Source: Fibrobacter sp. (GTDB taxonomy: Bacteria; Fibrobacterota; Fibrobacteria; Fibrobacterales; Fibrobacteraceae). From it: a stretch of DNA of 64,000 nucleotides. Positions 5,770-20,234 of this stretch are shown here, piece by piece. The position numbers and the translations under genes are program-made. The notes under the pieces were generated by a model. It was not told the DNA's origin, did not search any database, and worked only from the letters and a program-made list of their open reading frames with translations. How positions within the stretch are numbered: the stretch's first letter is position 1; every line of letters starts with the position of its first letter. The stretch is from the NCBI GenBank assembly GCA_017965445.1, contig JAGCPZ010000076.1:1-64000 (forward strand), in the 5' to 3' direction.

Positions 5770-8463
5770 ATGAAGTTAGGATGGTTTGGTAAGCATGTTC
5801 GCACGGCTTTCGCCTTGACGGGGCTTGCGTGCAGTCTCGGATTTTCTCAGGATATACTTTACCCCGACATGTTCGCGTTGTCGGACGTTCAGCTTTTGGA
5901 TGGCGTCTTGAAGGAGCGGCAGGATTTGAACATTGAGACGCTTATGTCGTACGATGTCGATCGCTTGCTTGCGCCGTTTTACGAAGAAGCGGGAATGAGG
6001 CCCAAGGCTTCTAAGTTCCCGAACTGGGCAGGGCTTGACGGCCACGTTTTGGGGCATTACTTGAGCGCCTTGGCGATGCATTACGCCGATAACGATGACG
6101 TTCAGGTCAAAGAACGCATTGAATACATCTTGAAGGAACTCAAGACAATCCAGGACCAAAATTCCAAGGACAACAACTTCAAGGGCTATATCAGTGGCGT
6201 GCCGAACGGCAAAAAGATGTGGCTCAGCATGAAGAGCGGCAATGCTGGCGCGCAGAACGGCTATTGGGTGCCGTGGTACAATATCCACAAGCTTTATGCG
6301 GGTCTGCGTGACGCCTATATTTATGCGGGTTATGAGCAGGCAAAGACGATGTTCCTTGCGCTTTGCGACTGGGGTATTACCATTACGAATGGCCTCGACG
6401 ATTCCAAGATGCAGCAGATGCTGGGTACGGAACACGGCGGCATGCCCGAAGTCTATGCCGACGCTTACAAACTCACAAAAGACGAAAAGTATTTGAATGC
6501 CGCAAAGAAGTGGTCGCACCAGTGGCTTTTGAATCCGATGTCGCAAGGTAATGACAACTTGACCAACGTGCATGCCAATACGCAGGTGCCGAAAGTCGTC
6601 GGTTTTGCGCGAATTGCGGAACTCTCGGGCGATGAAAAGTACAAGAAAGGTTCCGATTTCTTTTGGCAGACAGTTGTGAATAAACGCAGTATCGCCATTG
6701 GCGGCAACAGCATTTCGGAACATTTCCCGGCGCTCAACAACCATAAAAAGTTTGTTGAAGAACGTGAAGGACCGGAATCCTGCAATACTTATAACATGCT
6801 CAAGTTGACGGAACGTCTGTTCAATATCAAGCACGATGCTCATTACACCGACTTCTATGAACGTGCGCTTTTCAACCATATCCTTTCGACAATCCATCCG
6901 AAACACGGTGGTTATGTGTATTTCACTCCGGCTCGTCCGCGCCATTACCGCGTATATTCCAAGGTCAATGCGGGCATGTGGTGCTGCGTCGGTTCGGGCA
7001 TGGAAAACCCGGCGAAGTACAACCAGTTTATTTATACCAAAGACAAGGACGCTCTCTACGTGAACCTCTTTGTTGCCTCCATGCTGAACTGGAAAGACAA
7101 GAGCGTAAAAATCAAGCAGGAGACAGCCTTCCCGAAGGGGGAATCCTCCAAGTTCACGATTACGGGTAGCGGCGAATTCGATATGCAGATTCGCCACCCG
7201 TACTGGGTCAAGGAAGGCGAGTTCAAGGTCATCGTCAATGGCGATACCGTCGTGAAAAAGTCAACACCGTCGAGCTACGTTTCTGCCGGAAAGTCCTGGA
7301 AGTCGGGCGATGTCGTCGAGGTGCTTTACCCGATGTACACGCATGTCGAAGATTTGCCGGGCGTAAGCGATTACGTGGCGCTTTTGCACGGCCCGATTGT
7401 GCTTTCTGCAAAGACGGGAACGGCGAACTTGAACGGCCTTGTCGCCGATGACGGTCGCTGGAGCCATATTGCGTCCGGAGCGCTGGAATCGCTCGATCAG
7501 GCGCCGATGCTAGCAAGTAAAAAAGAGGACATTCCCTCCAAACTGGAACCGGTGAAGGGCGAACCGTTACATTTCAAGGCGCCTTACCTCTTCGCAAAAC
7601 AAAAAGACGCAAGCCTGCTTCTGGAGCCGTTCTACGAAGTCCACGATGCCCGTTACATGATGTACTGGATGGTGCTTACGGACCCGACGATTCTCGACCG
7701 CTTGGAAAAGGAACAGAAAGAAGCTTTGGCGCTTGACGAAAAGACCGTCGATAAGGTTGCCACAGGCGAGCAGCAGCCGGAAGTCGATCACAAGATGGAA
7801 GAGAAAAATTCCACCAAGGGCACGGCGAATGGCGAATTCTACCGCGACGCTGGCAAGTGCTCCGGCGGCGATGGCGGCCTCATCAGCTACGAATTCGAGA
7901 CGAACAGCGAAGATTCCTTGAGCCTCATGGTGCGTTACTGGGGCAACGAAGGCTGCACGCGTATATTCGATATCTCCATTGACGGCGAAAAGCTTACGAC
8001 CGAGACGATTTCGGACCGCTGGAAAAAGGACGAGTTCGTGAACGTGACGTACCCGATTCCCGACAAGATGATCAAGGGCAAGAAGGTGGTGCGTATCGCG
8101 TTCTCGGCAACTTCTGGAATGGTGGGCGGCATCTACAGCATACGCCTCCTCCGCAACAAGCCGAAGCCGGTCGTTGTTGACCCGCCGACGGACATTGCGC
8201 CGGTCGCCAAAGTGAACCAGGGATTCCGCGTGCGTGCCAATTCGCAGATGCTCCAAATCGAGTCGGACGCCGCACTTGCCCGAACGATGAACGTGAAAAT
8301 TTATTCAATGGATGGGCGCCTGAAACTCTCGCAAATGCTCCCTGCAGGCGCAAACAGTTTTGAAGTCGATATCGCAGGCCTCAAGAATGGCAACTACATC
8401 GTGCGACTCTTCCAGGACGGCCTCGTGCGCGGCTACACGTTGTTCAATAAAAACGGACTTTAA
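5770..8463 (+). CDS. Secreted GH127 beta-L-arabinofuranosidase with C-terminal sorting-like domain
   Basis: Length is 897 aa from ATG 5770 (AAGGTGG upstream); the GTG at 5761 is part of that ribosome site. A signal peptide ends near GFSQ (residue 27). Residues about 35-600 are the GH127 (DUF1680) catalytic region: LDGHVLGHYLSALAM, YNIHKLYAGLRDAY, HGGMPEV. The zinc-cysteine site of this family is complete: Glu336 and Cys338 in EGPESCNTYNM, and Cys405-Cys406 in GMWCCVGSGMENP, where one Cys is the nucleophile. Residues about 675-795 form the C-terminal beta domain often attached to these enzymes (GEFYRDAGKCSGGDGG...MVGGIYSIRLLR). The last 80 residues (VKIYSMDGRL...GLKNGNYIVRLF) look like a type IX sorting module. 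Expected role: release of L-arabinofuranose from plant arabinan or arabinogalactan protein side chains. Confidence 0.9.
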   Translation: MKLGWFGKHVRTAFALTGLACSLGFSQDILYPDMFALSDVQLLDGVLKERQDLNIETLMSYDVDRLLAPFYEEAGMRPKASKFPNWAGLDGHVLGHYLSALAMHYADNDDVQVKERIEYILKELKTIQDQNSKDNNFKGYISGVPNGKKMWLSMKSGNAGAQNGYWVPWYNIHKLYAGLRDAYIYAGYEQAKTMFLALCDWGITITNGLDDSKMQQMLGTEHGGMPEVYADAYKLTKDEKYLNAAKKWSHQWLLNPMSQGNDNLTNVHANTQVPKVVGFARIAELSGDEKYKKGSDFFWQTVVNKRSIAIGGNSISEHFPALNNHKKFVEEREGPESCNTYNMLKLTERLFNIKHDAHYTDFYERALFNHILSTIHPKHGGYVYFTPARPRHYRVYSKVNAGMWCCVGSGMENPAKYNQFIYTKDKDALYVNLFVASMLNWKDKSVKIKQETAFPKGESSKFTITGSGEFDMQIRHPYWVKEGEFKVIVNGDTVVKKSTPSSYVSAGKSWKSGDVVEVLYPMYTHVEDLPGVSDYVALLHGPIVLSAKTGTANLNGLVADDGRWSHIASGALESLDQAPMLASKKEDIPSKLEPVKGEPLHFKAPYLFAKQKDASLLLEPFYEVHDARYMMYWMVLTDPTILDRLEKEQKEALALDEKTVDKVATGEQQPEVDHKMEEKNSTKGTANGEFYRDAGKCSGGDGGLISYEFETNSEDSLSLMVRYWGNEGCTRIFDISIDGEKLTTETISDRWKKDEFVNVTYPIPDKMIKGKKVVRIAFSATSGMVGGIYSIRLLRNKPKPVVVDPPTDIAPVAKVNQGFRVRANSQMLQIESDAALARTMNVKIYSMDGRLKLSQMLPAGANSFEVDIAGLKNGNYIVRLFQDGLVRGYTLFNKNGL

Positions 8464-10204: not shown

Positions 10205-10888
10205 ATGCTTGACCTTCTTGCTGTCCAGTCCAGCACAACAAACGCAACGATTATTACGCTTGCCTACACCTTGATTTTGGCCTTCATCCTGTCTTCCGCC
10301 ATCGGTTGGACATACGAAAAGACCTTCCTCGGGCTTTCCTATTCCCGCAACTTCGTCCAGGGCATTGTCTTGAGCGCTGTTGCTGCTTCGATGATTATGC
10401 AGGCCATCGGCGATAACGTCGGTCGCGGTCTCGGTATGATGGGTGCCCTCTCGGTGGTCCGCTTCCGTACGAGTTTCAAGGACCCGCGAGATATCATGTT
10501 CATATTCGCGGCGCTAGGTGCAGGTATCGGTTGCGGTGTCTATGCCTGGGGTGCCGCTGTGGGCGGAACGATAGCGTTCTGCTGTGTGGCTTTCCTTCTC
10601 TCCCGTACAGGTCTTGGTACCAAGCATTTCTTTGATGGCATGCTCCGCTTTGCTCTCCCGAACGAACCAAAGGTCCGTGGCCAGGTAGAAGATATCATGA
10701 AGGGCAATTTAAAGACGTTCATTTTGATAACCATGCGCGAAGTCGATGGCGGCGCCCGTTTGGACGTTGCCTACCAGATTCGCCTTCGTGCGACCAAGCC
10801 CGCTGCCGAAATTCTCACGATGCTTGCGAAAATCGAAGGCATTTCGGATGTCCAGTTCATGATGCAAGATGCCACGACGGAAATGTAG
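10205..10888 (+). CDS. DUF4956 inner-membrane protein
   Basis: Length is 227 aa. There are about four membrane segments: residues about 13-35, 48-70, 98-117 and 119-137. Between the second and third is the highly conserved cytoplasmic loop GRGLGMMGALSVVRFRTSFKDPRDI, diagnostic of DUF4956. The soluble C-terminal part (residues about 155-227) has an ACT-like alternation (TFILITMREVDGGARLDVAYQIRL...AEILTMLAKIEGISDVQF). DUF4956 genes often sit beside VTC-domain polyphosphate polymerases, as here. The role is unknown; an inner-membrane partner of the polymerase is the simplest guess. It is the first gene of a five-gene operon, 14 bases before the adaptor gene. GGAG lies 7 bases upstream of ATG. 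Confidence 0.85.
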   Translation: MLDLLAVQSSTTNATIITLAYTLILAFILSSAIGWTYEKTFLGLSYSRNFVQGIVLSAVAASMIMQAIGDNVGRGLGMMGALSVVRFRTSFKDPRDIMFIFAALGAGIGCGVYAWGAAVGGTIAFCCVAFLLSRTGLGTKHFFDGMLRFALPNEPKVRGQVEDIMKGNLKTFILITMREVDGGARLDVAYQIRLRATKPAAEILTMLAKIEGISDVQFMMQDATTEM

Positions 10889-10901
10889 GGAGGATTGAAA
10901 A

Positions 10902-12011
10902 ATGAATAAACTTGAAGATTTTCTCGATACTTTCTGGAACACCCACAAGAACAATCCGGGTGTCGCTTATGTCTATACCCATAAGCTTTCCATTGCTTGG
11001 ATTCTCTGCGTGATTTTCGCCGTTATGCTCGGCTTTATGTACCAAGGCAAGGCCGCCATGTTCCGTGGCATTGCGGAATCCAGCGAAACGATTATCAGTC
11101 TCCCGTCTCCGACCGAAATTGTCAAGGTCTATGTGGTGCCCGGTCAGGAAATCAAGGCGGGCGATACCATCGTGGTCATCAACCGTCCTGACCTCACACT
11201 CCGCATCGCGGAACTCTCCCGCGAACTGGACAATATCGAAGGCCGCAGCAACTTGAGTTCTGCCGAAATCGACCAGAAGGTGGCCGATGTCAAGGCGAAC
11301 CTCGAAACGCGTCGCCTCACGCTTTCTGCCGAAATCCGCAACCTCGAAACGGAATACGAAAGCAACAAGGCTATTTCTGCAAAACTCAAGAGCCTCTCCA
11401 ACTCGAAGTCCAAGAGCGATGGCAACGACGCCATGGCCATGCGCATCAAGAGCCTCAAGAACGAACTTGCTCTTGCTACCAGGAGCGCGAACGAACAGAT
11501 TGCTCTCCTCCGTGGCAGTGGCCGCCTCCAGAAGTCTAGCGGCAAGAGCGAAGCCGCCAACATCCGCAAGGAACTTGCCGAAATGCGCAAGCAGCAAGAA
11601 GAACTCACCCAGATTGCAAAGGAAAACTGGGTCGTCGGTGACGTGAACGTTCGCGATGGCGAAAAGGTTTCGAGTTTTGCTCCGATTGTAACGCTTGCCC
11701 ACAAGTCTCCGACTCTCGTTCGCGGTTACATCAACGAACAGATTTACAAGAACACGAATATTGGCGAAGCCGTGAAGGTGACGACATTGGCTGGTGCAGG
11801 CAAGGCTGTGGTGGGCGAGGTCGTTGGCCTTTCCAGCCGCATCGTGCCGTTCCCCGAACGCATGTGGAAGATGCCCGAACTGCCTGTCTTTGGTCGCGAA
11901 GTGACTATCAAGATTCCGGAAGACAACGAGTTCTTGCTGGGCGAAATGGTGACCATCACTGAAACAAGCATTCGTAACTTGAAGAAGCAGCAAGAGAAGG
12001 CTAAGAAGTAA
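10902..12011 (+). CDS. HlyD-like periplasmic adaptor (membrane fusion protein)
   Basis: Length is 369 aa. A single N-terminal membrane segment (LSIAWILCVIFAVMLGFMY, residues about 28-46) anchors it in the inner membrane. Then comes a biotinyl-lipoyl-like half (ISLPSPTEIVKVYVVPGQEIKAGDTIVVI), a long coiled coil rich in Lys, Glu and Arg (about 100-240: LSRELDNIEGRSNL...NIRKELAEMRKQQEEL), the second lipoyl half (WVVGDVNVRDGEKVSSFAPIVTLA), and a beta-barrel (VRGYINEQIYKNTNIGEAVKVTTL). This is the adaptor architecture of tripartite exporters. GGGAGG sits 9 bases before ATG, overlapping the DUF4956 stop. The stop is directly followed by the ATG of the next gene with no gap. No ATPase or RND pump is present; DUF4956 is the only inner-membrane protein in the operon. 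Confidence 0.85.
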   Translation: MNKLEDFLDTFWNTHKNNPGVAYVYTHKLSIAWILCVIFAVMLGFMYQGKAAMFRGIAESSETIISLPSPTEIVKVYVVPGQEIKAGDTIVVINRPDLTLRIAELSRELDNIEGRSNLSSAEIDQKVADVKANLETRRLTLSAEIRNLETEYESNKAISAKLKSLSNSKSKSDGNDAMAMRIKSLKNELALATRSANEQIALLRGSGRLQKSSGKSEAANIRKELAEMRKQQEELTQIAKENWVVGDVNVRDGEKVSSFAPIVTLAHKSPTLVRGYINEQIYKNTNIGEAVKVTTLAGAGKAVVGEVVGLSSRIVPFPERMWKMPELPVFGREVTIKIPEDNEFLLGEMVTITETSIRNLKKQQEKAKK

Positions 12012-13409
12012 ATGAAAACTGTATCGTTAATATCGCTTGCGCTCACTGCAGCCGCCATTGCTAGTCCGCTTACTTGGGAACGCCTTGTCGAATCTGCCAA
12101 GGATGATCCGAGATATCAGGCTGCCGAAAAACGTGCCGAGGCGACCGCCACCGACCGTAATCTCAAGCTTTGGGACAAAATTGAGCTCCGTTACCAGTTG
12201 GACGGTTTCAGCTTTGCCAAGCACGATTTTGAACTCCGCGTGACGCCGCAGGCCTTTGGCGAACGTGCTGCAGACAAGGAACATTTCGAAGCCGTCAAGA
12301 ACTACCAGCAGGCAACTTTCGCCGTTGAACGTTCCATACTTCTTTACGACCGTTACGAACGCGGTGTGCGCTATGTGTTGCGCAAGAAGATAAACGAGAT
12401 TAACAAGCAGCTTCTGCAGGTGAACAGCGACCGTATCGAGGTGCTCCACCTCAAGTCGGGCTCCGCTTCGTTCAATGCCGAAGACTTGATGACCTCGCTG
12501 GAAAAGAACGCATCGCTCAAGTCGAGCATCCTTTCGGACAGCACGGCGCTCCGCGATGCCGAGCTCAAGCTTAGAATTTGGGTGCCGGACTTCGAAGGTG
12601 TTGACCTTGATACCAACTTTATCCCGACGATGGACGAACTTGCCGAGTTCCTGAAGGACGGCGTGAACGTCGATGAAAACTTCCCGCTGGTGGCTCTTGC
12701 AAAGGGCAAACGTGACTCTGACGTTTCCAAGGCGAAGCAAGATGCCAGCAAGGACCGCAACTACATTTCTCATCTCGGTATCGGCTACTCGCTCCAGATT
12801 GAATCCCTGATGGAAAAGTACAAGGACTTGGGTTATAGCGATATAAGCAAGACCAAGTACAGCAAGTATGCCGACGAATGGACGAAGGGTGCTTGCGTCG
12901 GGGGCTATATTGGCGAAGATTGCATCAGAACTGATCCTGGTTACGTGGTGCGCAAGCTCGTCCCGGAAACGGATGACCGCAAGACTTCGGATAAATTCTT
13001 TGTGAACCTCGCCATCCGTCTGCCGTTCTTCGACAGCAACAAGGACGCGACGCTCCGTGAACAGGTTGCCGTTCTCGATGCCGAAAGCAAGTACTTGGAC
13101 GATGTGCGCGAAGTGAACCAGAAGGTTGCCCGCCTCACCGAAGAAGTGCTCGCTCTCATTGGCCAGTGGAAGGTCTTGAAGGACTATGCCGAACAAGTGA
13201 ACGCCAGCGGCTTCATGGAACAGTTTGCACGCAATGCGGGTTCGGACCCGCTCCTGCTCCTGCGCGCCCGCGAAAGCGCTCTCGAAAGCGACTTGAAGGC
13301 TGCAAAACTCGAATACGATATTTTCGCCCGCTACCTGTCCCTGCTCGATTACGCTGGGGGCCTTGCCCGTCAGGATGTCGCAAACCATCTTCGTGAAGGA
13401 ATCAGGTAG
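12012..13409 (+). CDS. TolC-like outer-membrane channel protein
   Basis: Length is 465 aa. A short signal peptide (LISLALTAAAIASP) comes first. The rest is mainly long helices with beta-like stretches (LRYQLDGFSFAKHDFELRVTPQ and FFVNLAIRLPFFDS), arranged as two similar halves, each ending in a helical hairpin (for example QNVAR-type LDAESKYLDDVREVNQKVARLTEEVLALIGQW). This matches TolC-like channel proteins, though it is diverged and may be specific to the operon. An inserted Cys pair (GACVGGYIGEDC, near residue 300) is unusual for TolC. ATG follows the stop of the adaptor immediately, and the VTC gene begins 3 bases after its stop, so the three are expressed together. With the adaptor it could make a channel across the envelope. 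Confidence 0.7.
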   Translation: MKTVSLISLALTAAAIASPLTWERLVESAKDDPRYQAAEKRAEATATDRNLKLWDKIELRYQLDGFSFAKHDFELRVTPQAFGERAADKEHFEAVKNYQQATFAVERSILLYDRYERGVRYVLRKKINEINKQLLQVNSDRIEVLHLKSGSASFNAEDLMTSLEKNASLKSSILSDSTALRDAELKLRIWVPDFEGVDLDTNFIPTMDELAEFLKDGVNVDENFPLVALAKGKRDSDVSKAKQDASKDRNYISHLGIGYSLQIESLMEKYKDLGYSDISKTKYSKYADEWTKGACVGGYIGEDCIRTDPGYVVRKLVPETDDRKTSDKFFVNLAIRLPFFDSNKDATLREQVAVLDAESKYLDDVREVNQKVARLTEEVLALIGQWKVLKDYAEQVNASGFMEQFARNAGSDPLLLLRARESALESDLKAAKLEYDIFARYLSLLDYAGGLARQDVANHLREGIR

Positions 13410-13412
13410 TTT

Positions 13413-14231
13413 ATGGCCGAGGCCCGCGGATTTAGCCTTCTCGAGCGTTTCGAGCTCAAGTACCATATTCCCGTCGCATGGGCGGACCGGATAGGTGCTT
13501 TTCTCGCTCCGTACTGCGAAGAAGACTATTATTCCAAAATTACACCGGGTGGATTCTACTGGATTACGAACCTTTACCTGGATTCTCCGACATGGACGTT
13601 CCTTGGCTGGAAAAAGAAACAGCTTTTGGACCGTTTCAACATGCGTATCCGCACTTACGGCGAGCATCCGGCACAGGACGGTACGTTCCACTTTGAAGTC
13701 AAGCGCAAAATCCGTAATATTTGCTACAAGAGCCGTGCGACCATCAAGGGCATCAACCCTGGCGAAGTTTGGAACATGAAACCGGAAGAATGGCCGTGCA
13801 AGAGCGATAAAGACCGCATGTATCTCAAGGATTTCTTGTACAAGACCGAAGTCCATCATGCGCATCCGCGACTCTTGACGCAGTACAAACGCCGCGCCTG
13901 GTTCGGCCTCCGTGAGGAGTATTCACGTGTGACGATCGACACAGGTATGCGTTTCCGCGAAGAGAACGGATTTGATTATACGGTGGATCCGCACTACATG
14001 CATTCCACCGGAATTCCCCGATTTTTCCAGCCAGGTGCCGATGCCGTGCTGGAGCTCAAATGCCCGGCAGCCCAGATGCCGTACTGGATGTTTGACTTGA
14101 TACGCGCTTTGAACTTGAAGCATTCTGCATTCTCTAAATTCGGAAATGCGGCTGCGGAATGGAAGCGTGTTTATGAAAATCCGCGACGTTTCAAAAGTCC
14201 ATATTGGACTCGTCTTGCGGGGAATTTTTAA
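13413..14231 (+). CDS. VTC-domain polyphosphate polymerase
   Basis: Length is 272 aa. One VTC domain fills the protein, a triphosphate-tunnel-type barrel. Visible key residues: ERFELKYHI (Glu14, Lys16), NLYLDSPTW, DRFNMRIRTYGE (Arg74, Arg78, Arg80), FHFEVKRKI (Glu95, Lys97), YKRRAWFG...YSRVTIDTG (Arg160-161, Arg172, Asp176), AVLELKCP (Glu214, Lys216) and SAFSKFG (Lys242). In yeast Vtc4 these positions bind nucleotide, metal and the growing chain, making polyphosphate from ATP. No signal or membrane segment is present, so the active site is cytoplasmic, presumably against the inner membrane with DUF4956. It is the fourth gene of the operon, 3 bases after the TolC-like stop. Polyphosphate synthesis is established for several VTC proteins; in this operon it is inferred. 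Confidence 0.85.
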   Translation: MAEARGFSLLERFELKYHIPVAWADRIGAFLAPYCEEDYYSKITPGGFYWITNLYLDSPTWTFLGWKKKQLLDRFNMRIRTYGEHPAQDGTFHFEVKRKIRNICYKSRATIKGINPGEVWNMKPEEWPCKSDKDRMYLKDFLYKTEVHHAHPRLLTQYKRRAWFGLREEYSRVTIDTGMRFREENGFDYTVDPHYMHSTGIPRFFQPGADAVLELKCPAAQMPYWMFDLIRALNLKHSAFSKFGNAAAEWKRVYENPRRFKSPYWTRLAGNF

Positions 14232-14281
14232 TATAGATTTAGATAGATAAGATCAAAAAAATTTAAAAAAGGAAGGCGCTT

Positions 14282-16006
14282 ATGAATACCAAAAAATGGC
14301 TTGCAGTTGGCACTTGTGTCTCTGTAATGGGTATGTTCTCAGCCTGCTCTGACGACGAAAGTAGTCCTATTACTCCTCCGACTCCGGGGCCCACTAGCTC
14401 TGCGGTTGTTGTTCCTGGTTCTTCTGATGCTGTTCCGCCACCGGGTAGCAGTGCTGCTAATCCGACTCCGTCTTCAGTTGTTGCTCCGACTTCATCTGCG
14501 GCTGGTCCTGCACCGGTGTCGTCGAGCGGAGGCATCGAGGTTCAAACGGATACCAGCACGGCTCAGATGGGTGTTTCTGAAATTATGTACAACGCCGCGA
14601 ACGGTTCTGCGTTGGAATGGATTGAAGTCTATATCAAGGCTGGTCCGGATATTACGGACATGGCATTGAGTGGCGTTCGCTTGGACGGTGCCGTCGAATA
14701 CATGTTCCCGGCAGGATCCCTGAAGAAGGGTGAATACGTCGTTGTTGCAAATGATGTCGCCTTGTTTAAGCAAACCTATCCGAATTTGCCAGCTGGTTGC
14801 AAAGTCTTTGGTCCGTGGGATAATGATCCTAAGACTGGCGCAGTTGCAAAGCTCGTCAACGAAGGCGATGTTGTCGATGTGAAAATCAAGGGCTCCGGTG
14901 ACGTGAGTGCCGCTTTCGGTAACGAACCGCCATGGCCAAGCCTGGCAGACGGCAAGGGTCGTACTCTTGTGTATAAGGGTTCGGGCAGTGAAGCCAGTGC
15001 AAACTCTTGGGGACCGAGCGCTATTGAAAACGGTAATCCGTGCGTGGGTGGTGACAAGGTTCTCGATGCTTCTACAATTCGCCTGAACGAAATCAAGCCT
15101 TACGATCTTGGTGTTTCTGACGGCTGGGTCGAAATCTACAACTATGGCGACGCTCCGGTTGATGTCAAGGGCTGGGAACTCGAATCCAAGCGTAAGGACA
15201 AGAAGTGGACTGTGGGTGGAGCTAATACGGTTGTTCCGGCCAAGGGCTTCCTCGTTCTTGAATCGTCCGATGCTGTATTCGGTGAAGGCCTTTACTTGAG
15301 CGACAATGGCGATGAAGTCTATCTGTACGAAGTTGTCGGTGGTGCCCGTACGGGTAAGGAAACAAGCTTGATGCTTGCTGCAGGTAAGCAGTCCAGCGGT
15401 GTTGTCGATTTGCCGGGCGGAACCACGGCTCAGGGCGCTATGGCTGCGGAAACGAAAGGCGCAGCGAACTCGCCTTTGATGGCAGGTCCGATTTTCATTA
15501 GCGAAATCCATTATCATGAAAACGAAGAAGACCCGAATGATGTGGAATTCCTTGAACTTGTGAACAAAGGAACGGAAAATGTGACTTTGGTCGAAAGTAT
15601 CAATAACACTCCGCAGGGTTGGAAAATCGAAGGCGTGAATATGGAATTCAAGGCGGGTGATGTAATCCCTGCTGGTGGAAAGATGGTTCTGTTCGGTGAT
15701 TCCCTTAGCAGTAAAGAAGCTTTGCTCCGTGCTCGCTTCAGTATTGCCGAATCTGTTCCTATCCGCTTCTATGCAGGTAAACTCTCGAACCGTGGTGAAA
15801 CCGTTGCTGTCAAGAAACCTTATTCTAAGAATGCGGATGGTTCTAGATGGTACTATCAGTTGTCCGATGCGACACTTTATAGTGACCGCTGGCCCGCAAT
15901 GACTGATACGGATGGTAAGGGCAAAAGCCTGAACCGCAAGGACTTCACAACGATGGGCTACAGCTACTCTGCATGGGAAGCCACTGCGCCGACTCCGGGC
16001 AAGTAA
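14282..16006 (+). CDS. Lipoprotein with three lamin-tail domains
   Basis: Length is 574 aa. Lipoprotein signal MNTKKWLAVGTCVSVMGMFSACSDD (lipobox FSAC). Residues about 25-90 are a Pro/Ser/Thr/Val linker (PTPGPTSSAVVVPGSS and similar). Three lamin-tail-like (LTD) beta domains follow at about 95-240 (VSEIMYNAANGSALEWIEVYIKA), 258-370 (IRLNEIKPYDLGVSDGWVEIYNYGD) and 400-565 (IFISEIHYHENEEDPNDVEFLELVN). Each begins with the usual xxISEIhyN...EWIEL pattern. In other bacteria LTDs are linked to CotH kinase-like domains that also sit near VTC and DUF4956 genes; here the CotH part is absent. AGGAAGG precedes ATG; the gap to the VTC gene is 50 bases without a terminator. It probably sits on the outside of the outer membrane, exposed by its long linker. 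Confidence 0.85.
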   Translation: MNTKKWLAVGTCVSVMGMFSACSDDESSPITPPTPGPTSSAVVVPGSSDAVPPPGSSAANPTPSSVVAPTSSAAGPAPVSSSGGIEVQTDTSTAQMGVSEIMYNAANGSALEWIEVYIKAGPDITDMALSGVRLDGAVEYMFPAGSLKKGEYVVVANDVALFKQTYPNLPAGCKVFGPWDNDPKTGAVAKLVNEGDVVDVKIKGSGDVSAAFGNEPPWPSLADGKGRTLVYKGSGSEASANSWGPSAIENGNPCVGGDKVLDASTIRLNEIKPYDLGVSDGWVEIYNYGDAPVDVKGWELESKRKDKKWTVGGANTVVPAKGFLVLESSDAVFGEGLYLSDNGDEVYLYEVVGGARTGKETSLMLAAGKQSSGVVDLPGGTTAQGAMAAETKGAANSPLMAGPIFISEIHYHENEEDPNDVEFLELVNKGTENVTLVESINNTPQGWKIEGVNMEFKAGDVIPAGGKMVLFGDSLSSKEALLRARFSIAESVPIRFYAGKLSNRGETVAVKKPYSKNADGSRWYYQLSDATLYSDRWPAMTDTDGKGKSLNRKDFTTMGYSYSAWEATAPTPGK

Positions 16007-16021
16007 ATTTATTTAAGACAG

Positions 16022-16052
16022 TCACCCCGGCCTTCGTGCCGGGGCTGTTTTA
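16022..16052 (+). terminator. Terminator after the DUF4956-VTC operon
   Basis: CACCCCGGC-CTTCGT-GCCGGGGCTGTTTTAT. The stem belongs to the CCCCGGC...GCCGGGG family reused after other genes in this window. Confidence 0.75.
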
Positions 16053-16173: not shown

Positions 16174-17976
16174 ATGAAAAGGTACTTTGCATTCATTCTT
16201 TGTGGCAGCATGGCTGCGAACGCGACCTCGCTTTCTTTACAAGATGCGTTGGACATGGCTATGGCCAACAATTCGAAGATCAAGGCCGAAAAGGCGAAAG
16301 TGGATATAGCCGAAAGTGGTGAAAACGAAGCTTTTGCCCGATTCCTCCCGACGGTGAGCTTGTCGGCAGGCATTACCAAGATTAATGACCCTATTTCGAT
16401 TGACCTTGGGCGAATTCAGCAACCTTTGAGCGATATTGCCGGGGCTGCCGCTTATTCCAAGGCTTATCTTGCGACATACAACGGAGCATACGCTAAAGCT
16501 TATCAGGAGGCTGTAGGCCAGGCGATGAAAGCGGGCATGGACGAAAAATCGGCCAAAGCCTATGTGGATTCCAAATCTGCCGATATCTGGAGCGGGGTCG
16601 TGAGCAGCAAGGACGCTAACGATGCCGCCGTGAAAATGGCTGAAAGCAAGGGCCAGGAATCCGCCCAACAAATCAAAAATTCCGATTTCAACATGAAGGT
16701 GCAGGATGATTGGTTCTTTAACGCCCGCCTGACCGTCGTGTGGCCCATTTTTACGGGTTTCAAGATTTATTCCGCGTACGATGCCGCCAAGGAAAACGTG
16801 AACGCCCGCAAGGCCGAATTCGAGATGGCGCAAAACACGGTGCTCATGGATGTGGCGACAAAGTACTTTACGCTTCGTTTGTGCGAAGAACTTGTCGTAA
16901 TGCGCGAGACGACCAAGAAGGACTTGGAAGAACATCTGAATCGCTCCAAGAAGCTTGAAGAAGGCGGTCAGATTAGCAAGACGGAACGCCTCCGTGCCGA
17001 AGTAGCGTTAGCCGAAGCCGAAAACGCTTACGAAGACGCTCTGCGCGATCAGTCGCTGGCCCGTATGGCGCTTGCAAGCCTTCTGCATACGGACACGAGT
17101 CTTACCGCGACGACTCCCGTGGAATCTCCGGAAGGCATCCGTTCGATGGAAGAATTCAAGGCTCTCGCTGTTGAAAAGCATCCGGGGCTCCGTCAACTGC
17201 GTATCGAACGCAAACGCAACCAGAATGCTGTAAAGGCGGCCCAGGCCGATTACTATCCGACGGTAGCGTTGTTCGGCTACAAGGAACTTTATACAAGGGA
17301 TTTGACGCTCCTGGAACCGGAATGGGCGATTGGTGCCAAACTGCAGTGGGATATTTTCAAGGGCGGTGATACGCGTGCCAAAGTGAGCTCTGCAAAGGCG
17401 ATGGACCGCTCCTTGGGCAGCCTCGAAGAAGAGACGATTGACAACTTGAAACTCCTTGTCGAAAAACGTTGGCGCGAACTGGAACATGCAAAGGGGAGGC
17501 TCACGAGCCTTGCCAAAACGCGTGAACTGGCCGACGAGGCATTGCGCAGCCAGAACAAGGCTTACGAAGCGGGGCTTGCCACAGGCCTTGACGTTGTGGA
17601 TGCGGAACTCGCACTTTCCCGTTTGCAGGTCGCTGACCTCAAGGCTCATTATGACGCCGTAATTGCATGGCTCGGGCTTCTTGAAGCGGCGGGTGAAGTT
17701 TCTACCGCAGGGACGGTTTTGGTCTCTAAGCAACTCGTTGTCGAAAAGCCGGTCGATGCTTCGACAAGCTCAGCAACCGACGACGCTCGTCAATCCAGTG
17801 AAGTACCCGCTGCAGTTCGTCATCCTGAGCAAAGCGAGGAATCCAGTGAAGTACCCGCTGCAGTTCGTCATCCTGAGCAAAGCGAAGGATCCAGTAAAGT
17901 ACCCGCTGCAGTTCGTCATCCTGAGCAAAGCGAAGGATCCAGTAAAGTCTTGACAGAAACTCAGCCTGCTGAATAA
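16174..17976 (+). CDS. TolC family outer-membrane exporter protein with repeat-derived C-terminal tail
   Basis: Length is 600 aa from ATG 16174; the track-style start at 16129 lies before the signal peptide and was not used. Signal peptide MKRYFAFILCGSMAANA. Two TolC-type halves: LSLQDALDMAMANNSKIKAEKAKVDIAESG...ARFLPTVSLSAG, and LAVEKHPGLRQLRIERKRNQNAVKAAQADYYPTVALFGY, with the typical beta-strand sequences VVWPIFTGFKIY and LQWDIFKGGD. Residues about 530-600 are not TolC: they are three 16-residue units (VPAAVRHPEQSE...) produced by a dispersed DNA repeat read in frame. First gene of a TolC-HlyD-ABC2-ABC2 export operon. An Ala/Gly-rich insert near residues 85-165 is also longer than usual. 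Confidence 0.9.
   Translation: MKRYFAFILCGSMAANATSLSLQDALDMAMANNSKIKAEKAKVDIAESGENEAFARFLPTVSLSAGITKINDPISIDLGRIQQPLSDIAGAAAYSKAYLATYNGAYAKAYQEAVGQAMKAGMDEKSAKAYVDSKSADIWSGVVSSKDANDAAVKMAESKGQESAQQIKNSDFNMKVQDDWFFNARLTVVWPIFTGFKIYSAYDAAKENVNARKAEFEMAQNTVLMDVATKYFTLRLCEELVVMRETTKKDLEEHLNRSKKLEEGGQISKTERLRAEVALAEAENAYEDALRDQSLARMALASLLHTDTSLTATTPVESPEGIRSMEEFKALAVEKHPGLRQLRIERKRNQNAVKAAQADYYPTVALFGYKELYTRDLTLLEPEWAIGAKLQWDIFKGGDTRAKVSSAKAMDRSLGSLEEETIDNLKLLVEKRWRELEHAKGRLTSLAKTRELADEALRSQNKAYEAGLATGLDVVDAELALSRLQVADLKAHYDAVIAWLGLLEAAGEVSTAGTVLVSKQLVVEKPVDASTSSATDDARQSSEVPAAVRHPEQSEESSEVPAAVRHPEQSEGSSKVPAAVRHPEQSEGSSKVLTETQPAE
17793..17948 (+). repeat. Dispersed repeat, three 48-bp tandem copies inside a gene
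   Basis: Three 48-bp units, each containing the CGTCATCCTGAGCAAAGCG repeat (17818-17847, 17866-17895, 17914-17943) plus TACCCGCTGCAGTT. The 48-bp period keeps the reading frame. The same 30 bp lies between genes at 451-480. Confidence 0.95.
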
Positions 17977-17999
17977 TTTTTAGAAAATGGAGAAAAATA

Positions 18000-19001
18000 A
18001 TGAACGCATTGAAGATGATTGGAAAAGTTATAGTAGTACTTGCCCTGATTGCGCTTGTCATTATGGGCATTTCCCAGCTCCAGCAATTTGCAACGCAGCC
18101 GCGTGAACAGTTCTTGCAAGGTCAAATGGAGGCAAGGCGCGTTCTTGTGGCGGGGAAGGTCCCTGGCCGTATTGAACGTTTGCTCGTTCACGAAGGCGAT
18201 GTCGTCCAAAAGGATTCCCTGATTGCGGTCATCAGCAGCCCGGAAATCGAAGCCAAGAAGATTCAGGCGCAGGGCGCTCTCGGTGCCGCGAAGGCGCAGG
18301 CGAGCAAAGCCCGCAATGGTGCCCGCAGCGAAGACATTACCGCGCTCAAGGCCATGGCCGATCGCGCCCAGGAAGCTGCAACGCTTGCAAAGAACACCTA
18401 CAACCGTGTGCAGAAACTTTATAACGAAGGCGTCTTGCCGCTGCAAAAACGCGACGAAGCCGAAACCCAGATGAAGGCTAGCCAGTCCGCTGCCGATGCC
18501 GCCCGCGCCCAGTACAACCAGGCTGTGGCCGGTGCCCGTAGCGAAGACAAGGCTGCCGCAAACGCTCTCGTGTTGCAGGCCAAGGGTGCCAATGCCGAAG
18601 TCGATGCCTACCTCGAAGAAACCAAGATTCGCACGCCGATTACGGGCGAGGTCTCGCTCAAGCTTGCCGAAGAAGGTGAAGTGGTGGGCTCCGGCATGCC
18701 GATTATCGCTGTTACCGACTTGAACGATTCTTGGGCGGTATTCCACCTCCGTGAAGATTACCTCAAGAACGTATCCAAGGGCAAAAAGTTCTATCTCCAA
18801 GTTCCGGCTCTCGACAAGACTGTCGAAATGGTCGTAAGCTACATCGCTTCTGTCGGCGATTACGCCACATGGCGCAGCAGCAAGGAGAGTTCCGGCTTTG
18901 ACCTCAAAACGTTCGAAGTCCGCTTGCGCCCGACCCACAAGGTGGAAAACCTCCGCCCAGGCATGAGCGTTTTGCTCCCCGCCGACGATATCCAGCAGTA
19001 G
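18000..19001 (+). CDS. HlyD family periplasmic adaptor
   Basis: Length is 333 aa. N-terminal membrane anchor VIVVLALIALVIMGISQL (residues about 10-27). Lipoyl-like half VLVAGKVPGRIERLLVHEGDVVQKDSLIAVISSPE, then a helical hairpin rich in Ala, Lys and Gln (residues about 85-200, with repeated GARSEDI/GARSEDK), then TPITGEVSLKLAEEGEVVGSGMPIIAVTDL and a barrel (WAVFHLREDYLKNVSKGKKFYLQVPAL). This is the EmrA/YbhG-like adaptor for ABC-2 type exporters. GGAG lies 9 bases before ATG; 23 bases after the TolC stop. It should join the two permeases below to the TolC protein above. Confidence 0.9.
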   Translation: MNALKMIGKVIVVLALIALVIMGISQLQQFATQPREQFLQGQMEARRVLVAGKVPGRIERLLVHEGDVVQKDSLIAVISSPEIEAKKIQAQGALGAAKAQASKARNGARSEDITALKAMADRAQEAATLAKNTYNRVQKLYNEGVLPLQKRDEAETQMKASQSAADAARAQYNQAVAGARSEDKAAANALVLQAKGANAEVDAYLEETKIRTPITGEVSLKLAEEGEVVGSGMPIIAVTDLNDSWAVFHLREDYLKNVSKGKKFYLQVPALDKTVEMVVSYIASVGDYATWRSSKESSGFDLKTFEVRLRPTHKVENLRPGMSVLLPADDIQQ

Positions 19002-19016
19002 GAATAGAAGGTTATC

Positions 19017-20234
19017 GTGCTGAAAGGCCTTTTAAAGACAATAGGGAAAATTTACTTTGGCCACAAAATCGTTTTGTGGATGATTCTTACGGTGCTTCCC
19101 GTGGGCGTTTCCGTGTTCATGCTGGAAATGTTTTCGTCCGAAATCGTGCAGCATGTCCCGATTGGAATTGTCAAACAAGATAAAAGCCAACTGGCCGACC
19201 GCTTGGAAAGGGCGCTCCAGTCCAGCCCCGTGCTCGATGTGAAGGTGAATTGCCATGACATGAGCGAATGCGAACATGCGGTAATTCGTGGCGATTTGCA
19301 GACGTTCGTTGTGCTGCCGTATGATTTGGAACGCCGTGCCTTGCGCCTTGAAGCACCCGTGATACCGGTTTATTCCAGCGGACAGAATTATCTCACGAAC
19401 ATGTTTGCGACAAAGGAAATCCGTGCGGTCATTACAAGTATCGGTTCGGACCTTTTTACGGCATCGTTTGAAGATCCCGTCAAGACGGAAATCCATTCTG
19501 TTGGCAATATTGAAGGCAATTACCAGGGGTTCCTGGCGCTTGGGCTTGTATCGGCGGTGTTTCATTTGGCGGCAATGCTTGTTGCCGTATATATCGGTTC
19601 ATTCCCGCTTCGCGACCGCCGTGTACGTGAATTTTACCAATACGCCGAAAAATCTTGGTTGACGCTCGGGATAGCTTCGTTTGTTCCGATGACTATAATC
19701 CTTTGGCTTGAATACATGGGCTGTTACGCTTATACGCACCGCATGCTCATGCCGATGGGCTTTGATGAATTCGTGATGGTCTCTGTGGCGCAGCTTTTGA
19801 TGGTTATTTGTTGCGTGGGGGCCGGCATGGCTTTTGTGGGCGTGACCGGCGTGATGCGCATTGCGACTGGCGTTTCGGGCGTGATTGGCGGCCCTGCGTT
19901 TGCGTTTGCCGGCCAGACATACCCCGTGATGGCGATGCCGTTTGCCGTACGCTGCTTTGCATTTGTACTCCCGCTCACGCATGTGCTCCGCGTGCAATCC
20001 ATGATGCTCCTTGGCGATGTCGGTATGGCTGCATCTTGGGAAGTCATCAAGCTTATGGCGGGCATGGCTCTTTTCTGGTTTTTGTTCGGAAACTTTACGA
20101 TGCATCTGCGCTGGAAATACCGCTTGTCGCGTGATTCCAAGTTGCCTGTAGTCGTTGACGACGAAAATCCAATCGAAATCGAGAAAGCGGTTCAGGAAGC
20201 TGCAAAACGTCATCAGGAGGCGAAAAATGATTAG
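19017..20234 (+). CDS. ABC-2 type export permease, first of pair
   Basis: Length is 405 aa with a GTG start (GAAGG 6-10 bases upstream); 15 bases after the adaptor. Architecture of ABC2_membrane_3 permeases: one membrane segment near residues 18-36, a large periplasmic loop (VPIGIVKQDKSQLADRLERALQSSPVLDVK...), then five or six membrane segments from about residue 165 (LALGLVSAVFHLAAMLVAVYIG, ASFVPMTIILWLEY, VSVAQLLMVICCVGAGMAFVGV, FALPLTHVLRVQ-like, LMAGMALFWFLFGNF). The C-terminal tail is charged (VVDDENPIEIEKAVQEAAKRHQEAKND). It overlaps the next gene by 8 bases. Substrate unknown. No ATP-binding subunit is encoded nearby. Confidence 0.85.
   Translation: MLKGLLKTIGKIYFGHKIVLWMILTVLPVGVSVFMLEMFSSEIVQHVPIGIVKQDKSQLADRLERALQSSPVLDVKVNCHDMSECEHAVIRGDLQTFVVLPYDLERRALRLEAPVIPVYSSGQNYLTNMFATKEIRAVITSIGSDLFTASFEDPVKTEIHSVGNIEGNYQGFLALGLVSAVFHLAAMLVAVYIGSFPLRDRRVREFYQYAEKSWLTLGIASFVPMTIILWLEYMGCYAYTHRMLMPMGFDEFVMVSVAQLLMVICCVGAGMAFVGVTGVMRIATGVSGVIGGPAFAFAGQTYPVMAMPFAVRCFAFVLPLTHVLRVQSMMLLGDVGMAASWEVIKLMAGMALFWFLFGNFTMHLRWKYRLSRDSKLPVVVDDENPIEIEKAVQEAAKRHQEAKND

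Follow-up and report, generated by a model that had tools for sequence, protein, structure and literature searches.

A VTC-type polyphosphate polymerase encoded with DUF4956, a periplasmic adaptor and a TolC-like channel: a conserved operon and candidate polyphosphate export system

Synthase-dependent exopolysaccharide secretion, as for Pel, cellulose and alginate, is a polymerisation-driven export through an outer-membrane pore. The yeast VTC complex couples synthesis to translocation: polyphosphate is made on the cytosolic side and passed into a channel in the membrane (PMC9911596). The literature on bacterial polyphosphate that we found focuses on PPK1 and PPK2, with VTC as the eukaryotic route (e.g., the review PMC10657179). 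Pel clusters have been reported to have genes for VTC (polyphosphate polymerase), DUF4956 and CotH as neighbours (PMC7112168), and NELoc-2 of Clostridium perfringens contains VTC and CotH genes (PMC2879425). Here, we describe a five-gene operon that links VTC and DUF4956 to an HlyD-like adaptor, a TolC-like channel and a lamin-tail domain (LTD) lipoprotein, found in a 64,000-nucleotide stretch of Fibrobacter sp. (contig JAGCPZ010000076.1, positions 1 to 64,000; hereafter the window). The operon represents a conserved branch within the bacterial VTC systems, and we found no description of this branch in the open-access literature; no paper tying VTC to HlyD or TolC was found there, which is weak evidence of absence. 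We give slightly better than even chances to the operon being a dedicated envelope-spanning system for polyphosphate synthesis and export.

The window derives from a genome of 2.76 Mb that is 72% complete and whose close public relatives are Fibrobacter. An earlier reading made from the letters alone (the sequence-only reading) had placed five genes of these families here, and the list of open reading frames (ORFs) and Pfam agree with it on coordinates and families:

10205..10888, + strand: DUF4956 protein, 227 amino acids (aa), candidate inner-membrane pore (Pfam PF16316, 3.7e-12; AlphaFold)
10902..12011, + strand: HlyD/EmrA-like periplasmic adaptor, 369 aa, with a single N-terminal membrane anchor (Pfam HlyD_D23, HlyD_3)
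12012..13409, + strand: TolC-like outer-membrane channel, 465 aa, with a signal peptide (OEP, 22.6 bits; hhalign; AlphaFold/Foldseek)
13413..14231, + strand: VTC-type polyphosphate polymerase of the triphosphate tunnel fold, 272 aa (Pfam VTC, 1.8e-30)
14282..16006, + strand: lipoprotein with three lamin-tail domains, 574 aa (Pfam LTD, 8e-28, three stretches; lipobox MFSAC)
16025..16044, + strand: intrinsic terminator at the operon end (stem of 7 G-C pairs, 6-base loop, T-rich tail)

The tight spacing and single terminator noted earlier are equally apparent, with intergenic gaps of 13, 0, 3 and 50 bases in order and a strong predicted terminator (-22 kcal/mol, z -5.45). Promoter-like sites occurred about as often as expected by chance. 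DUF4956 had been taken for the only inner-membrane protein; it is the only polytopic one, but HlyD too has a membrane anchor at its N-terminus.

Compared with the closest described systems, the operon resembles the yeast complex (Vtc1/Vtc3/Vtc4) in having a Vtc4-type polymerase whose catalytic residues are the same and which is coupled to a membrane protein. Unlike in yeast, the window VTC lacks an SPX domain, and a Vtc1-like membrane domain was not detected, DUF4956 being present instead; an adaptor and an outer-membrane channel come in addition, so that two membranes would be crossed. Gram-positive VTC-DUF4956-CotH clusters likewise link VTC to DUF4956, with CotH or LTD nearby, but those examined lack HlyD and TolC, and the VTC and DUF4956 proteins of the operon belong to a separate clade. 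EmrAB-TolC, MacAB-TolC and type I secretion systems also combine an EmrA/HlyD-like adaptor with a TolC-fold channel; where they have a transporter of the major facilitator superfamily (MFS), ATP-binding cassette (ABC) or resistance-nodulation-division (RND) type, the operon has a polymerase and DUF4956. Indeed, no ABC, MFS or RND pump was found within 10205-16006 (ORF list, Pfam). The idea of polymerisation-driven export is shared with the synthase-dependent exopolysaccharide systems, which differ from the operon in polymer and parts, the operon encoding no glycosyltransferase.

The conservation of the operon was examined in 40 Fibrobacterota loci representing several families and classes, 36 of which were not cut by contig ends. 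The order DUF4956-HlyD-TolC-VTC is intact in all 36, and the LTD gene follows VTC in 33 of them. A scan of GTDB genomes with the VTC profile, which is biased towards relatives, gave 177 of these, of which 80 were retained; they come from Desulfobacterota, Bdellovibrionota, Pseudomonadota, Nitrospirota, Delongbacteria, Spirochaete-like and UBP6 rumen genomes, and Fibrobacterota. DUF4956 was found in 71, HlyD in 76 and TolC in 73 of the 80 loci, and all four core genes in 63, spread over at least six phyla. Most of the misses are due to contig ends or to an ORF of the same size that occupies the TolC position but is too divergent for the model, while one locus (L139) is genuinely without TolC. 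The arrangement, first thought to be unusual to the window strain, is instead phylum-wide in Fibrobacterota and recurrent elsewhere. The core occurs in two gene orders, with overlapping junctions (median gap -4 at HlyD>TolC and -1 at TolC>VTC), and the distance matrices of its four proteins correlate at r 0.83-0.94 against a permuted maximum of 0.15, a correlation to which shared descent contributes.

As a less biased sample, PF09359 was searched in the phylum of Desulfonema (297 genomes) and in that of Bdellovibrio (291 genomes), and 70 loci were read. These split into 32 of the conduit type and 38 without HlyD/TolC. Both HlyD and TolC are present in 31 of the 32, the remaining locus being cut off. 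The conduit-type VTC proteins form a single clade (support 100/100), as do the DUF4956 proteins, and the conduit-less VTC-DUF4956-CotH loci fall outside. Since the conduit type is one clade in both trees, the association of HlyD/TolC with VTC-DUF4956 probably arose once and was then retained. The proposal that HlyD and TolC accompany VTC-DUF4956 in any outer-membrane bacterium was rejected on the basis of the conduit-less loci. Four genomes (G500, G633, G691 and G734) carry both types together. When 90 neighbours of conduit-less loci were scanned with Pfam, the 25 commonest families included no OEP or HlyD. Six monoderm VTC-DUF4956 loci also have neither HlyD nor TolC, which suggests that the VTC-DUF4956 pair is the minimal unit and that DUF4956 is its membrane partner. 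The added adaptor and channel are what carriage of a chain beyond the periplasm would need.

The window VTC scores 106.7 bits against a PF09359 cut-off of 23, its sole Pfam match, and neither a signal peptide nor a membrane segment is predicted. A single-sequence search of PDB gave no match; the profile of the bacterial family was needed, and it reached yeast Vtc4 (3.8e-15), which ranked above the remaining VTC subunits of yeast. Residues K16, R78, R80, K97, E214 and K242 align with Vtc4 K200, R264, R266, K281, E426 and K458, and all are invariant in 120/120 VTC family sequences. R264, R266 and E426 are the residues mutated for Vtc4 inactivation (PMC9911596), and K458 was named as its catalytic lysine (PMC4641920). 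In the E-x-K motif near the C-terminus, the second position is a lysine in the family (K216) versus a glutamate in tripolyphosphatases. Judged by the Vtc4 residues checked, the enzyme looks catalytically intact, in keeping with its earlier designation as a polymerase, and it likely synthesises polyphosphate. PPK1 and PPK2, which also make polyphosphate from ATP, are unrelated enzymes: among 37 Fibrobacter genomes (36 at >=95% completeness and the window genome), PPK1 was found in two and PPK2 in none, with no match to either in the incomplete window genome. Since they are nearly absent while VTC is near-universal across the genus, VTC is probably the main polyphosphate route in Fibrobacter.

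The HlyD protein matches HlyD_D23 (6e-8) and HlyD_3 (2e-6) in Pfam, and its family profile matches EmrA (8e-8) and also MacA. Against operon HlyDs from outside Fibrobacterota it gave 56 matches of 79-213 bits (median 143), versus 6.7 bits for a paralog in its own genome at 18000-19001, two genes downstream of the operon, and no further match in the window genome at E <= 10. Its orthologs are thus the HlyDs of these operons in other phyla rather than the nearby paralog. In many relatives, HlyD is followed by, or fused with, a further domain that has weak matches to the Phytase-like, SdiA-regulated and DUF3616 families (e.g., L034 4691-6667, L035 5712-6668, L079 4532-6727 and L140 5069-6829). 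This extra domain is probably a beta-propeller; a sequence-level PDB search with its profile gave no useful match.

The TolC-like protein is barely above the Pfam cut-off for OEP (1.1e-4), and a sequence-level PDB search with its profile gave no useful match. A profile-profile comparison (hhalign) with a clear OEP family gave a probability of 87% (E 3.9e-6). Its AlphaFold model, with a predicted local distance difference test score (pLDDT) of 85, was matched by Foldseek to Escherichia coli TolC, SilC, OprM and MtrE at E 1e-9 to 1e-11, with template modelling (TM) scores of 0.55-0.63 against E. coli TolC and OprM. As modelled, the protein at 12012..13409 has a TolC fold. The best-conserved charged residues of the TolC-like proteins are R60, R76 and R114. 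A net-positive channel was considered as a signature of anionic cargo and was not seen across whole TolC proteins. In one Bathymodiolus methanotrophic endosymbiont (L125 5538-7998), an opposite-strand ORF at 6165-7280 splits the TolC gene.

For DUF4956, five hydrophobic helices and a C-terminal ACT-like domain are predicted (AlphaFold monomer, pLDDT 79.6). The nearest folds by Foldseek are ACT domains, including the MgtC C-terminus (2lqj), and the protein has a sub-threshold NCBIfam match to MgtC-type. Because every ACT-domain match has E >0.001, the MgtC likeness is treated as a lead only. In a basic loop, R86, R88 and R95 are invariant and K92 is 98% conserved (55 sequences); this loop could meet an anionic polyphosphate chain. 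It should be noted that DUF4956 also occurs without a nearby VTC, paired with a TolC gene in Hymenobacter (L072 5908-7991) and adjoining a caspase-like ORF in Sinorhizobium (L075 4962-5651), and therefore has further partners.

What is established here is which genes make up the set, how well they are conserved, that the set probably has a single origin, and to which fold or family each part belongs. This bears out the adaptor and channel as dedicated partners of VTC and DUF4956: the four are co-inherited as a conserved core, the conduit-type VTC and DUF4956 proteins each form a single clade, and HlyD is orthologous across phyla. DUF4956 as the polytopic partner in place of a pump also stands, as the conserved unit includes no ABC, MFS or RND transporter and none was seen recurring beside the core in other phyla. 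On this basis, a four-step mechanism can be proposed. Cytosolic VTC, judged by its homology and catalytic residues, would use ATP to polymerise polyphosphate at the inner membrane. If the yeast complex is a guide, the growing anionic chain would enter a DUF4956 pore, possibly passing the basic loop, with the ACT-like domain as a docking or regulatory site. The private HlyD would then link DUF4956 to the private TolC, and the chain would exit without an ATPase or proton-driven pump, as the family functions and co-inheritance suggest. Finally, surface proteins adjoining the core (LTD here, CotH kinases elsewhere) might bind or use the product. The broader claim of a new class of envelope export machine, in which VTC drives polyphosphate through an MgtC-like DUF4956 and a private HlyD-TolC pair to the surface, pump-free and in at least six phyla, is put forward tentatively, at somewhat less than even chances. 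Export energised by a polymerase, put forward earlier as new for a tripartite exporter, has a precedent in yeast, where VTC links the making of polyphosphate to its passage through one membrane (PMC9911596). If the proposal is true, a tripartite conduit would be fed by a polymerase rather than a pump. The operon offers a concrete, widespread candidate for polyphosphate made by VTC and exported in one step. It also opens the roles of DUF4956 and the CotH/LTD neighbours to testing, since its carriers include bacteria whose genomes are complete, among them Bdellovibrio bacteriovorus (L140), Desulfonema magnum (L079) and Desulfoluna limicola (L087).

Several observations weigh against this export model. 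Homology of DUF4956 to the yeast VTC channel domain was not detected by any search run, and its family profile matched no VTC chain in PDB. The pore is only a candidate, the model being monomeric with a predicted TM score (pTM) of 0.58. The TolC-like proteins are not clearly basic (median net charge -0.5 per 100 aa; isoelectric point 5.4 in the window). In the polymerase, a conserved Glu14 in the first strand, two residues upstream of K16, is absent from yeast Vtc4. The conduit-less VTC loci, 38 of 70 in two diderm phyla, indicate that not every VTC system needs a conduit, and the open-access literature gave no biochemistry for the conduit-type clade.

Among the alternatives, the conduit may export another cargo (protein, glycan or lipid), with polyphosphate from VTC-DUF4956 acting as a phosphoryl donor or counter-ion, e.g., for secreted CotH-type kinases outside the cell, where ATP is scarce. 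CotH or LTD-CotH genes do adjoin the core in several relatives, CotH matches occur in 37/37 Fibrobacter genomes (5-18 each), and conduit-less VTC-DUF4956-CotH loci exist in monoderms; however, no single candidate cargo gene is conserved beside the core across phyla, CotH was not found beside the conduit loci of Bdellovibrionota, and no energised transporter is linked to the core, so that we regard this explanation as unlikely. Phosphate or metal homeostasis, in which DUF4956 would act like MgtC, VTC would buffer phosphate in the form of polyphosphate and HlyD-TolC would discharge phosphate, short polyphosphates or metal complexes, would suit the MgtC-like layout of DUF4956 suggested by its NCBIfam match and ACT-like fold. 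The ACT-domain matches are generic, though, a small ion would not usually have an adaptor and channel of its own, and the operon has no pump; this seems rather improbable.

The operon could also assist in making exopolysaccharide or in regulating its synthesis: in Gram-positives, pel loci are adjoined by genes for CotH, polyphosphate polymerase and DUF4956 (PMC7112168), and glycosyltransferase genes lie near monoderm VTC-DUF4956 loci. With no glycosyltransferase, Pel or Bcs gene in the window operon (Pfam), and none seen recurring beside conduit-type loci, we give this about one chance in ten. Finally, VTC-DUF4956 and HlyD-TolC might be unrelated systems lying side by side; HlyD and TolC as neighbours by chance in this strain alone was one of the refuting outcomes named by the sequence-only reading. 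HlyD and TolC genes are common, and profile searches of the window genome found four HlyD_D23 loci and about five OEP genes. Chance is nevertheless ruled out for practical purposes by the comparative data: the gene order in 36/36 Fibrobacterota loci, the complete core in 63/80 scan loci, HlyD orthology, correlated distances, single-origin clades and genes overlapping across phyla.

The LTD gene is an accessory that is regular in Fibrobacterota only. It does not simply replace CotH, as had been suggested: no CotH adjoins the window operon (Pfam), but CotH lies beside the same core in relatives L045, L077, L079 and L111, and nine of the Fibrobacter CotH matches are in the window genome, away from the operon. 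Because CotH adjoins the core in these relatives and is abundant in Fibrobacter genomes, a surface phosphate economy is a reasonable guess. A peptidase C25 (gingipain-type) gene lies directly 5' of HlyD in five similar rumen loci, one of them L109 (2892-4679). A large protein of ~820-1300 aa, with no significant Pfam match, adjoins the core up- or downstream in L103 (8943-12272), L107 (757-4203) and five more Bdellovibrionota loci. Directly after the operon, the window carries a separate, unrelated export operon at 16174-20234 (TolC2, HlyD2 and ABC-2 permeases, the last from 19017 on), which is conserved in the genus and near relatives only. The 3' end of its TolC2 gene is extended by a 48-bp tandem repeat of 3.3 copies (17792-17948).

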